Shown here piece by piece: positions 37,396-40,668 of a DNA stretch of 64,000 nt; within the stretch, counting starts at the first letter, position 1, and each line of letters opens with the position of its first letter. The stretch is from Methylorubrum salsuginis (GTDB lineage: Bacteria; Pseudomonadota; Alphaproteobacteria; Rhizobiales; Beijerinckiaceae). The position numbers were made by a program, and so were the translations under genes. The stretch covers positions 1-64,000 of the forward strand of contig NZ_FOSV01000009.1 of the NCBI RefSeq assembly GCF_900114375.1. Reading direction: 5' to 3'. The notes beneath the pieces were generated by a model. It was not told the origin of the DNA and ran no database searches. It saw only the letters and a program-made list of their open reading frames with translations.

Positions 37396-37465
37396 AGGAT
37401 CGCCCTTTCGCGCGGCGGTGCGTTTGGCTTAAGCAACGGCCCCTTCGCCGCAGCGCCGCGAGTTC

Positions 37466-38509
37466 ATGACATCCGACCGGTCCTTCGTTCTGGTGATCCA
37501 TCAATATCGATGGCACACCCCGATCCTGGGCCCGCTCGCCGTCCGCCTCGGTGCCGATAACGAGGTCCTCGGCCTGACCATGGCGGCGTTCGAGGCCGCC
37601 TGGGACGACGGCTCCTGGCAGCGGGAGCGCGTCCCGGACCTCGTCGTCGTGGCCGATGCCGGCACCGCGGTGCATCTGCGCGCCCGTCTGCCCGACGCCC
37701 TGATCCTGCATGTCGGCCACGGCCTCATCAGCAAGAACGTGCCCGGCCAGACCTACGGCGCGGCCGATTACGTCTGCGTCGCGAGTGAGGCCGCCGCCGC
37801 GCGCTTGACCGCGCGGGGCCACGTGCCGCGCCGCGGCTTCCTCCCGACCGGGCTGATCCAGGCCGATCCGCTGTTTGCCGGCGCGTCCGGCCGCGACGGC
37901 GTCCGGGTGCCGGGCTGCACGGCCAGCCTCGTCTACGCGCCGACCTGGAACCCCTCGCTGTCCTCCGCGCCGATGCTCGGCGACGCGCTGGTGACGCTGA
38001 TGCGCGGCGCCGAGGATGGGGTCGGCATCCTCATCAAGCCCCATCCCCACATCGCGGTGGCGGCGCCCGAGTGGATCGAGACGTGGCGCGACTGTGCCAG
38101 GAACCACCCCAACGTCATCGTCCATCCGCCCGAGGCCGACCTGATACCGGCCCTGCTCGGGGCCGACCTTCTGGTCTCCGACGCCTCCTCGGCGATTTTC
38201 CACTTTCTCGCGCTCAACCGCCCGATCGTACTCATCGACAACCCCGAGCGCTTCGCGACGCCCGAATGCTACGACCCCGACGGCATCGAGTGGCGTTGGC
38301 GCGACATCGGGACCCGGGTCGAGTTCGTCGGCGAGCTGGCCACCGCTGTCCTGACGGCGCTGGCCGACCCGGAGCGCAACGAGGCGGCACGGATGGAGCG
38401 GCGCGCCGACCTGTTCGGCGAGCGCACCGACGGCTGCGCTCTCGACCGGGTGGGGGCCGCCGCCGAACGGATCTTGCGCGAGACACGCCAGGAGAATGGA
38501 CGAGGATGA
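37466..38509 (+). CDS. TagB/TagF-like glycerophosphotransferase
   Basis: The 347-residue soluble protein has a GT-B-like layout with the signature residues of CDP-glycerol:poly(glycerophosphate) transferases: HGL at 85-87, YAPTWN at 157-162, KPHP at 191-194 and SDASS at 238-242, followed by FHFLALNRPIVLID. These enzymes move a polyol phosphate from a CDP donor onto a surface polymer and are best known from Gram-positive teichoic acid synthesis. The next gene, a cytidylyltransferase, overlaps by four bases and would make the CDP-activated donor. Acceptor and polyol are unknown. Confidence 0.82.
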   Translation: MTSDRSFVLVIHQYRWHTPILGPLAVRLGADNEVLGLTMAAFEAAWDDGSWQRERVPDLVVVADAGTAVHLRARLPDALILHVGHGLISKNVPGQTYGAADYVCVASEAAAARLTARGHVPRRGFLPTGLIQADPLFAGASGRDGVRVPGCTASLVYAPTWNPSLSSAPMLGDALVTLMRGAEDGVGILIKPHPHIAVAAPEWIETWRDCARNHPNVIVHPPEADLIPALLGADLLVSDASSAIFHFLALNRPIVLIDNPERFATPECYDPDGIEWRWRDIGTRVEFVGELATAVLTALADPERNEAARMERRADLFGERTDGCALDRVGAAAERILRETRQENGRG

Positions 38510-38958
38510 CTTCGGTCTACGCCAAGGTCGTGGTCGACCTGTTCCATCCCGGCCATGTCCGCTTCTTCGCCGCCGCCCGGGCCTTGGGCGACCGGCTCAC
38601 GGTCTGCGTCGTGCCCGATGCGCGAGTGGCGGCCTACAAGGGGCGCCCGCCGTTGCTGACCCTGGAGGAGCGCGTCGAGATGGTCGCGTCCTGCCGCCAT
38701 GTCGATGCGGTGGTGACCGACGGCCCGAAGGTGATCGATCGCGCCTTCCTGGCGCGGTTCGGCCACGACCTCTACGCCTATGGCGGAGCGGATGCCGCCG
38801 AACTCGCGGTGAAGCGCGCCGATTGCGCGGACCTGCCGGAGGCGATGCGGGCCGAGATCCCCTACACGCCGGGCATCTCCTCGACGCTGCTGCGCCGCCG
38901 GCTCGCCGATCAGATCGGCGGAAGCCCTACAGGCCCGGCCCCTTCGCGGCCCCGATAA
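38506..38958 (+). CDS. cytidylyltransferase of glycerol-3-phosphate type (TagD-like)
   Basis: The 150-residue protein carries the nucleotidyltransferase motif HPGH at 14-17 (VVDLFHPGHVRFF) and a C-terminal YTPGISSTLLRRRL, equivalent to the ISTT motif of TagD. VEMVASCRHVDAVV fits the family core. It should couple CTP to glycerol phosphate or a similar phosphoalcohol such as phosphoethanolamine. Translation is coupled to the upstream transferase gene through an ATGA overlap. Its 3' end overlaps the convergent DUF1223 gene by 32 bases. Confidence 0.82.
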   Translation: MTSVYAKVVVDLFHPGHVRFFAAARALGDRLTVCVVPDARVAAYKGRPPLLTLEERVEMVASCRHVDAVVTDGPKVIDRAFLARFGHDLYAYGGADAAELAVKRADCADLPEAMRAEIPYTPGISSTLLRRRLADQIGGSPTGPAPSRPR

Positions 38959-39661
38959 TCCGCCCGGCCCGATTCGGACCGCTCGCCTGCAAGAGCACGG
39001 CGTAGCCGTCTGCGCCGTTGATCCGGGCGGTGGCGCGGGACAGCTCGAACCGGGTCGCCGCGCCGGTCCACGTCCCGACCCGATGGAAGCCCCGCACGAC
39101 GTTGGCGTAGACGGCCACGCGCCCCTCGTTGGCACCGTGCCCGATCACCACCGGGCGGCTGCGGACGACCGGCACCAGCCAGATCTCCGCCGGACGCGCC
39201 GTGGAATCGGCCTCGATGTCGATGACGATGTGGTCGTTGCGCTCGCACACCTTCACCCGCACCGGCAACGGCCCGGATTCCGCGACGAGGCGCGACAGCC
39301 GGCTCCGGTCGGAGCCGGGGATCAGCTCGCGGCCGCTCACCACCGCCTGCGGCGTGGCGAGTTGGTGAAAGCGGTTCTGGACGGCGTAGGCGCGCTGGCG
39401 CTCGTCGAAGGCGTGCTCGGCCAGCGTGTCCTTCCAGCCGAGATAGTCCCAGTAGGTCACCGGCACGGTCAGCGCGAGCAGGCCCGGCTCGCGGCTGAAC
39501 TCGCCGGCCAAGCGGTCGGCGGCGAGGCAGGCGGAGCAGCCCTGGCTCGTGAACATCTCGACCACCGCCCGCACCGGCGGGGCGGGCTCGGGACCGGCGG
39601 AGGCCGGGCGGACGGGGAGCGCGAGGGCCGTCGCAAGCAGCACCGCCCGCGCGCTCCGCAT
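38927..39661 (-). CDS. DUF1223 secreted thioredoxin-like protein
   Basis: The 244-residue protein has a signal peptide (MRSARAVLLATALALPVRPA, cleavage after ASA), then VVEMFTSQGCSACLAADRLA with the C42-x-x-C45 pair on a thioredoxin-like fold. DYLGWKDTLAEHAFDERQRAYA is strongly typical of DUF1223. It should sit in the periplasm; function unknown, possibly redox. Its ATG overlaps the last base of the acyltransferase stop (TGATG), so the two are translationally coupled. Confidence 0.88.
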   Translation of the reverse strand: MRSARAVLLATALALPVRPASAGPEPAPPVRAVVEMFTSQGCSACLAADRLAGEFSREPGLLALTVPVTYWDYLGWKDTLAEHAFDERQRAYAVQNRFHQLATPQAVVSGRELIPGSDRSRLSRLVAESGPLPVRVKVCERNDHIVIDIEADSTARPAEIWLVPVVRSRPVVIGHGANEGRVAVYANVVRGFHRVGTWTGAATRFELSRATARINGADGYAVLLQASGPNRAGRIIGAAKGPGL

Positions 39662-40668
39662 CAGCGGCCCCGCGCCGCGTCGAGGGCGGGCTCGGTGGCG
39701 ACCGGGTTCGACGCCGGGATCGGGGGCGTCGCGGCCCCCTTCGGCAGCATCGAGGGCCGCCAGCGGCGGTGCATCCACAGCCACTGGCCGGGATGCTCGC
39801 GCACCCACGCCTCGATGACCGAGGTCATCGCCTGCATCGCGCCCTGCACGTCGATCAGCCCGTCCGGTCCACGGGGCAGGTCGAGGGCCGGCGTCAGCTC
39901 GAGCAGGAAACGCCCGCCGTCCTTGCGCACCACGCGAACCCCGTGGACCGGGCAATCGTGATGGCGGGCGAGCTTGCCGAGCAGCGGGTTGACCAGCACC
40001 GGCCGGTCGAAGAAGCGCACCACCACGCCGCGGGTGAAGTGCTGGTCGATCAACTGGCCGAGATGCCCGCCCCGCTCCACCGCGCCCTGCATGGCGAAGA
40101 CCGCGCCGGGGCCGGAGGCGGCCAGCCCCCCCATGGTCTTGCGGCGCACCTCCTGCACCAGCTGCGCGGCGGCCGGGTTGTTCGGCGGGCGAAACACCGC
40201 CGTCGTCTCCAGCCCGAACTTTTGGGCGCAGATCGCCGGCAGCTCCCAGTTGGCGAGATGCGCCGAAAAGATCAGTCCCGGCTTGCCGTCGTCGCGGATC
40301 GCCTCGAAATATTCGGCCCCCCGCACCTCCATGCGCTGGCTCGCCGGATCGGCGGGATCGTGGTCGAAGATCGTGTCGAGATGGGCGTATTCGGCGCCGG
40401 TGCGGCCGAGATTGTCCCAGGCCTCCCGCGCGATCGCCTGCAACTGCGCCTCGTCCCACTCGGGATAGGCGGCGCGGAGATTGGCCATCGCGGTCCGGTG
40501 CGAGGGCAGGCGGGGCCCGAGCGTGCGGGTGATCCGGCCGCCGACATCGCTCGCCCGGTCGGTGCCCAGGGCACGGGCGAGCCAGAAAACGATCCGGATC
40601 AGCGGAACGGTCGCGAAGCCCGCCAGCCGTGGCAGGTTGCGCCGGAGGATCAGCGCGAGACGCAGCAC
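39661..40668 (-). CDS. lysophospholipid/lipid A acyltransferase (LpxL/HtrB family)
   Basis: The 335-residue protein has one N-terminal hydrophobic segment and the family's HX4E motif (H137-LANW-E142). GGHLGQLIDQHFTRGVVVRF and VREHPGQWLWMHRRWRPS complete the pattern. It should transfer a secondary acyl chain onto lipid A precursors at the inner membrane; the exact position and chain length are open. A Pro/Ala-rich tail follows the domain. The DUF1223 gene is coupled downstream. Confidence 0.9.
   Translation of the reverse strand: MLRLALILRRNLPRLAGFATVPLIRIVFWLARALGTDRASDVGGRITRTLGPRLPSHRTAMANLRAAYPEWDEAQLQAIAREAWDNLGRTGAEYAHLDTIFDHDPADPASQRMEVRGAEYFEAIRDDGKPGLIFSAHLANWELPAICAQKFGLETTAVFRPPNNPAAAQLVQEVRRKTMGGLAASGPGAVFAMQGAVERGGHLGQLIDQHFTRGVVVRFFDRPVLVNPLLGKLARHHDCPVHGVRVVRKDGGRFLLELTPALDLPRGPDGLIDVQGAMQAMTSVIEAWVREHPGQWLWMHRRWRPSMLPKGAATPPIPASNPVATEPALDAARGR

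Follow-up and report, generated by a model that had tools for sequence, protein, structure and literature searches.

Gram-negative bacteria are known to combine PF04464 enzymes with cytidylyltransferases (PMC5974469, PMC11666461). In the closest described systems, FgtA (PA1091) and Clostridioides difficile CD0244 are reported to be needed for adding the phospho-(N-methyl/N,N-dimethyl)threonine carried by a flagellin sugar, and cytidine diphosphate (CDP)-threonine is the proposed donor (PMC10714395, PMC11833859). Here we describe a pair of genes in 64,000 nucleotides of Methylorubrum salsuginis DNA (contig NZ_FOSV01000009.1, positions 1 to 64,000, assembly GCF_900114375.1; hereafter the window), consisting of open reading frame 1 (ORF1, 37466..38509, + strand, 347 amino acids (aa)), predicted to encode a PF04464 phosphotransferase, and ORF2 (38506..38958, + strand, 150 aa), predicted to encode a PF01467 cytidylyltransferase. 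As the initial annotation had noted, the two genes overlap by four bases, the ATGA of the stop and start codons (38506..38509, + strand), which suggests coupled translation. We consider it probable that they form a two-enzyme decoration cassette that makes a CDP-alcohol and joins one phospho-alcohol to a glycan through a phosphodiester bond. The new elements are the clade to which ORF2 belongs, together with the pocket that marks it, and the compact combination of such an enzyme with an FgtA-type transferase.

ORF2 scores well above the Pfam cut-off for PF01467 (CTP_transf_like, 59.1 bits, cut-off 21) and the NCBIfam cut-off for the general domain TIGR00125 (48.5 bits, cut-off 27.7), and carries the HxGH catalytic signature as HPGH (38545..38556, + strand). 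It had been called TagD-like, a description that holds at the level of the superfamily only. Against the TagD model TIGR01518, ORF2 reaches 29.9 bits (E = 5e-7) of the 165.4 required, less than the 52 bits it obtains, again below the cut-off (181.5), against domain II of HldE/RfaE (TIGR02199). Where the RTEG(I/V)ST signature defined in PMC6060094 would be expected, ORF2 reads YTPGISST, with Tyr120 (38863..38865, + strand) in place of the Arg of RTEGIST. The best matches in a profile search of the PDB were enzymes of the ethanolamine-phosphate type (PCYT2 or ECT; 3elb, E = 1.6e-27 summed over two domains of 54.6 and 44.3 bits), followed by the choline-phosphate type (CCT, 8.8e-12), Fom1 and then TagD; a search with the single sequence placed Fom1 second, ahead of the choline-phosphate type, with TagD lower. 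In a tree of 29 rows, built without the second domain of ECT and the two CCT stretches and with only part of the other matches, ORF2 falls within a clade of nine rows (99/99) on a long stem. The TagD-type rows fall into another group, and the positions of ECT and Fom1 are not resolved. The low score, the loss of the Arg and the position outside the TagD-type group together lead us to reject a TagD identity for ORF2.

The clade is distinguished by the alcohol side of its pocket. In an alignment in which we matched ORF2 to the residue numbering of PfCCT (after PMC6060094), the phosphate-binding Lys663 is retained as Lys45, also conserved in TagD, and hydroxyl residues occupy the positions of T761 and T762. 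Four other positions are changed: Asp623 to Lys7 (codon at 38524..38526, + strand), Tyr626 to Val10, Trp692 to Lys75 and Arg755 to Tyr120. The choline subsite of CCT works through charged and cation-pi contacts, and Asp623 is one of the PfCCT residues that shift to accommodate the ligand (PMC6060094); ORF2 differs from PCYT2 and CCT in having lysines in place of the D623 and W692 of that subsite, and from TagD in having Lys7-Val8-Val9-Val10 for Tyr-Gly-Thr-Phe. Position 7 is Lys or Arg in all 10 distinct rows of the clade and in none of the 28 rows outside it that have a residue at this position (a further 20 are gapped). Position 75 is basic (Lys or Arg) in the five rows paired with a PF04464 gene and V, P, S, P and A in five fused proteins described below, which leaves position 7 as the sole clade-wide mark. 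Outside the clade, Lys occurs at position 75 in three rows and Tyr at position 120 in seven, so neither residue is diagnostic by itself. The basic residue at position 7 suggests an anionic head group, though it could also contact the phosphate. From its place at the Asp623 position we infer that the ORF2 substrate is an acidic phospho-alcohol, for example phosphoglycerate, and the pocket residues together point to an alcohol that is probably acidic and not simply glycerol.

The description of ORF1 as TagB/TagF-like is borne out at the family level (PF04464, Glyphos_transf, 42.5 bits, gathering cut-off 22.1), but the closest described relative that we found is an FgtA-type phosphotransferase domain. 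Both histidines of the catalytic pair (HG and KxHP) are present in 13 of 13 alignment rows: His85, in the motif HGLISKN (codon at 37718..37720, + strand), and His193, in KPHP (38042..38044, + strand), align in that order with the two catalytic histidines of TagF-type enzymes, which in TagF are H444 and H584 (PMC5974469). A hidden Markov model (HMM) of the ORF1 group was run on the open frames of the fetched loci (53 rows). Its own group scored 602-667 bits, and a second group, consisting of TPR-type proteins of three genomes (G516, G397 and G325) and the PF04464 domain of an FgtA-type protein at locus L072, 135-236 bits (135 for L072); every row outside both groups scored 70 or less. In a maximum likelihood tree of 49 rows, from which three partial copies of the cassette gene and two rows shorter than 200 aa were excluded, the ORF1 clade (100/97) joins the L072 domain (99/84), and these together with the three TPR-type proteins make up one clade (92/88), apart from the 40 other PF04464 rows of the tree. 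ORF1 is thus predicted to be a PF04464 phosphotransferase of the FgtA/TPR-type branch, an assignment in which the long branches discussed below call for caution.

The L072 protein is a 1694-aa Pseudomonas aeruginosa polypeptide in which the PF04464 domain is accompanied by a GT2 domain. Its gene lies between flgL and fliC, together with genes for a methyltransferase, an HAD phosphatase and a nucleoside triphosphate (NTP) transferase, the arrangement given for PA1088-PA1091 (PMC11833859). What FgtA and CD0244 have in common with our pair is a PF04464 domain, a cytidylyltransferase gene in the locus and the addition of a single phospho-group to a sugar; for CD0244, the likeness to ORF1 comes from the description of the pathway and not from sequence. 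In contrast to L072, with its flagellar surroundings and a partner of the MobA/IspD type, ORF1 consists of this domain alone, is partnered by an HxGH-type enzyme and has no flagellar gene beside it. TagB, TagF, TarL and the capsule polymerases Cps3D and Cps7A resemble ORF1 in family, in the two catalytic histidines and in the fold matches to TagF and TarL. The sequence matches of ORF1 to the solved structures of Cps3D (E = 0.032) and TarL (E = 0.077) are, however, marginal, and genes for polymer or lipid-carrier synthesis are not found next to the pair.

The reactions that we propose follow from what is known of the two families. ORF2 would convert cytidine triphosphate (CTP) and a small phospho-alcohol into a CDP-alcohol and pyrophosphate. 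ORF1 would then transfer the phospho-alcohol to a hydroxyl of the acceptor glycan, yielding an acceptor-O-P-alcohol, i.e. a phosphodiester-linked cap, and cytidine monophosphate (CMP), with no polymer being formed. The direction and chemistry of both steps are those expected by analogy with characterized members, and the relationship with FgtA suggests that the acceptor is a glycan, possibly linked to protein. No polymer-synthesis or linkage-unit gene was found among the genes neighbouring the pair, in agreement with the initial annotation; these are an M29 peptidase gene upstream and, on the other strand downstream, a DUF1223 gene and an LpxL-type lipid A lauroyl acyltransferase gene (NF005120, 465.6 bits, cut-off 273). 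Since no glycosyltransferase, flippase or lipid-carrier gene is adjacent, and since only one group is added by the nearest relative that has been described, a single addition is likelier than a polymer. The earlier proposal of a minimal decorating pair, with one activity for CDP-alcohol synthesis and one for phospho-alcohol transfer, is supported. It had also been thought undescribed in methylobacteria; among the papers listed by a search of one open-access library on methylobacterial surface glycans, none was relevant by title or start of the abstract, which is a weak negative.

Several observations weigh against a glycan decoration cassette of the FgtA kind. The activities are predicted ones, there is no acceptor, glycosyltransferase or flagellar gene among the genes beside the pair, so that the flagellar locus and companion glycosyltransferase of the FgtA/CD0244 type are missing, and the group transferred could still be glycerol phosphate. 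In the ORF1 tree, the join with the L072 domain is a long branch (1.86) whose exact place is unsure. The tree was built without characterized TagB, TagF or capsule enzymes; its sole TagF-like row, a plasmid protein (L142), lies elsewhere, also on a long branch (2.44). The designation FgtA-type was given to L072 from its flgL-fliC position and its neighbours, the record itself being without that name. ORF1 is devoid of the TPR domain of its relatives, which Pfam finds in the G325 and G397 proteins (loci L036 and L037) and which we recognized by eye in that of G516 (L136); Pfam lists none in the L072 protein. TagF-like capsule polymerases also carry TPR domains (PMC5974469), and the company of this domain is thus not specific. 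At L037, none of the genes predicted in the vicinity of the TPR transferase was recognized as a cytidylyltransferase. The structure models are weak. That of ORF1, from a three-sequence alignment, has a predicted local distance difference test score (pLDDT) of 69.0 and a predicted TM-score (pTM) of 0.68; its top matches (50 rows shown) include UDP-GlcNAc 2-epimerases, TagF and TarL at TM 0.36-0.54 by query length, which makes a GT-B/TagF-type fold plausible but not precise. The AlphaFold model of ORF2 (pLDDT 56.9) was too poor and was not used. Finally, the charge argument for the ORF2 substrate is made at the level of single residues.

If the proposal is right, the logic of cytidylyl activation followed by phosphodiester transfer, familiar from teichoic acids, capsules and flagellin glycans, would also exist as a stand-alone two-gene cassette in which donor enzymes are swapped between unrelated folds. 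ORF2 would represent an uncharacterized branch of cytidylyltransferases, set apart by its pocket and yielding a CDP-alcohol that is either new or seldom encountered, and the few methylobacterial carriers would gain a charged mark, on the surface or on protein, that is missing in close relatives.

The cassette is indeed rare. A search with the ORF1 profile was positive in 4 of 111 genomes of the genus (G000, G005, G027 and G498), and in all four the pair occupies a single site, flanked by the M29 and acyltransferase genes. Thirty of 99 acyltransferase loci were inspected; 4 have the cassette, 22 have the M29 and LpxL genes and no cassette, and the remaining 4 show no M29 match within the stretch examined. 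G488, which has the top acyltransferase match (89%), served as a comparison lacking the cassette. There, 62 bp between matching flanks take the place of positions 37403..38925 (no strand assigned), so the inserted DNA is essentially the two genes alone, a cleanly inserted accessory element. Because the acyltransferase gene is present in 99 of 99 genomes, its proximity to the cassette is uninformative, and we reject a functional link between the two. A foreign base composition was likewise rejected, the GC content being 0.71 in each gene and 0.69 in the window.

Both genes are under purifying selection and are real genes. Compared with G000, the ratio of non-synonymous to synonymous divergence (dN/dS) of the orthologues in G005, G027 and G498 is 0.28-0.31 for ORF1 and 0.19-0.22 for ORF2 (0.31 and 0.22, respectively, in G005, where flanking genes give 0.11-0.25); the values for G498 were computed from contig L015. 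The synonymous divergence (dS) between G000 and G005 is 0.82 for ORF1 and 0.50 for ORF2, vs. 0.24-0.50 for the flanks, and between G005 and G498 it is 0.65 and 0.71, vs. 0.22-0.44. This is only suggestive of one or both cassette genes being older than the flanks, as though exchanged, and the pattern differs between the pairs of genomes. At the ORF1 start position (37466), the aligned orthologues hold an in-frame Met; we chose the orthologue starts in that alignment, and some have longer frames.

A more specific version of the decoration proposal is that ORF2, together with the fused proteins found in genus g394 (see below), represents an unrecognized family of cytidylyltransferases acting on an acidic phospho-alcohol (in the simplest case 2- or 3-phosphoglycerate), and that the cassette caps glycans with phosphoglycerate. 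This is possible but doubtful. The donor would come at little cost in a serine-cycle methylotroph, where 2-phosphoglycerate is central to metabolism. CDP-glycerate would then be made by a fold unrelated to that of CpgD, the Caulobacter CTP:phosphoglycerate cytidylyltransferase, from which its synthesis is known and which would catalyze the same reaction; CpgD resembles IMPCT and the choline-phosphate enzymes of the other fold (PMC12275187, PMC13228409). The capped glycans would perhaps be on exported proteins. In the one open-access library searched, the only reports of CDP-glycerate cytidylyltransferases that we found were two papers on CpgD and a meeting report.

The initial annotation had favoured glycerol phosphate, in which case ORF2 would be a glycerol-3-phosphate cytidylyltransferase and ORF1 would place glycerol phosphate on a surface glycan. 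We think this unlikely. It can draw on the superfamily relationship, seen in the sub-threshold TIGR01518 match and in TagD chains among the PDB matches, and on the Gram-negative capsule PF04464 enzymes, whose transferred group is either glycerol phosphate or hexose phosphate (PMC5974469, PMC11666461). However, ORF2 has lost the RTEGIST Arg and stands outside the TagD-type group of the tree, TagD is outranked in both PDB searches by the ethanolamine- and choline-phosphate types and by Fom1, and the residue aligned with Lys7 is Tyr in the annotated TagD of L142. With alcohol-pocket positions unlike those of TagD or of the choline and ethanolamine enzymes, and with TagD identity unsupported, glycerol phosphate is not indicated.

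It is very unlikely that the phospho-alcohol is instead put onto an envelope lipid as a headgroup. The presence of a lipid A acyltransferase gene next door would fit, as would Caulobacter, which makes CDP-glycerate, proposed to serve as donor in the synthesis of CPG2, an anionic sphingolipid (PMC12275187), but the acyltransferase gene occurs throughout the genus, unlike the cassette, and ORF1 groups with an FgtA-type domain. Moreover, the predicted Caulobacter transferase CC_1159 is described by a Pfam domain for displacement of CMP from a CDP-alcohol (PMC11324152), and CpgD has a different fold from ORF2 (PMC13228409). From our reading of the gene order, CC_1159 would be CpgA. Its domain is one that we take to be of a different family. 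The CpgA/CpgD sphingolipid pathway was thus rejected as the same system, the enzymes being of different kinds. Phosphonate tailoring, in which ORF2 would activate hydroxyethyl- or aminoethylphosphonate or the like as the Fom1 domain does, is the most improbable alternative and was rejected: ORF2 shares with the C-terminal cytidylyltransferase domain of Fom1 the stretch EIPYTPGISST, including Tyr at the site of the RTEGIST Arg, and the absence of the Gly of the GTFD-type motif, and PF01467 domains are often fused to phosphoenolpyruvate (PEP) mutase (PMC6697681), but ORF2 is not so fused, the phosphonate would need to be scavenged, and the PEP mutase family was found in none of the three cassette genomes examined (G000, G005 and G027), vs. 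11 of 14 control genomes.

Returning to the decoration cassette, the partners of ORF1-type transferases elsewhere are of more than one kind. At L072 the partner is the MobA/IspD-type enzyme mentioned above; at L036, a TPR-PF04464 gene stands in a row with IspD-type and mannitol dehydrogenase-type genes (L036:9197-12491); and at L136 a TPR-PF04464 protein is encoded near an apparently IspD-type gene. It should be noted that neighbouring genes at L037, L136, L140, L105 and L151-L154 are largely by-eye readings of predicted genes, with no Pfam search. The occurrence of unrelated cytidylyltransferases beside relatives of ORF1 is consistent with exchange of the module that supplies the transferase with its donor. 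The L036 row resembles a complete set for making and using a CDP-polyol in an alphaproteobacterium, and close to the L136 genes, on the other strand, we read a gene for a very large repeat protein (L136:1-10403, 2252 aa within the stretch).

The ORF2-like domain also occurs at the C-terminus of a fused protein of about 520 aa in 5 of 250 genomes of the order of G590. All five belong to genus g394, of which another member, G881, has no fused protein. The middle part scores below the Pfam cut-offs for LicD (13.1 of 22.6 bits) and NTP_transf_5 (17 of 31.2), and has a motif that we take to be typical of LicD/fukutin-type enzymes; the N-terminal 100 residues have a TPR-like appearance by eye only, with no TPR match in Pfam. 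This fusion to a transferase-like domain links the product of ORF2-type enzymes to a transfer step. In all five genomes, a gene for an RTX-type repeat protein (199-216 aa, RTX by eye) is divergent from the fused-protein gene (L105:7627-9906, L151:7844-10182, L152:7757-10423, L153:6216-8602 and L154:5783-8253), and the wider neighbourhood differs in part among them. The RTX-type protein may be the target of modification by the fused protein.

ORF1 and ORF2 were found paired in five of five loci known. A pattern-limited scan of genome contigs found two loci, L015, which is the G498 contig (labelled Methylorubrum populi), and L016, a contig of a metagenome-assembled genome labelled Gammaproteobacteria, which has the same pair at 53% (ORF1) and 62% (ORF2) identity and a four-base overlap. 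The genes predicted in G498 (L141) also overlap by four bases, with a GTG start, and in G005 a gap takes the place of the overlap. In G027 the ORF2 frame continues upstream without a stop, across a repeat, and where it starts is uncertain; this short repeat, absent from G000, lies between the cassette genes (L006:1896-2016) and encodes GVSGAGTA units in the ORF2 frame. Scans of viral contigs with both profiles gave 38 and 57 pattern stretches, none of which was confirmed. The match on a Streptomyces plasmid (H3) is split and lies beside a 288-base gene annotated as a hypothetical protein, with uninformative neighbours.

The intergenic site in the genus varies in two ways, by the cassette and by the DUF1223 gene. 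In the window, the latter (38945-39700, Pfam match) is on the opposite strand and overlaps the end of ORF2. We rejected DUF1223 as a partner: the gene is beside the cassette in G000 and was not seen there in the G005, G027 and G498 loci, and several cassette-free loci carry it.

Some other loci deserve mention. In two other proteobacterial genomes (L137 and L138), a PF04464 gene adjoins a PF01467 gene of GTFD type or similar. In G689 (L140:6785-10983), a PF04464 protein (HMM match L116) has two apparent nucleotidyltransferase genes nearby, read by eye, and the locus is possibly another CDP-alcohol system. At L016, the pair is followed by an alanine-racemase-N/YggS-like gene and then by a Stf0-type sulfotransferase gene, each with a four-base overlap (L016:8342-9792). 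The YggS-like protein apparently reads AASEH at the site of the pyridoxal phosphate lysine, where Escherichia coli YggS has AVSKT.

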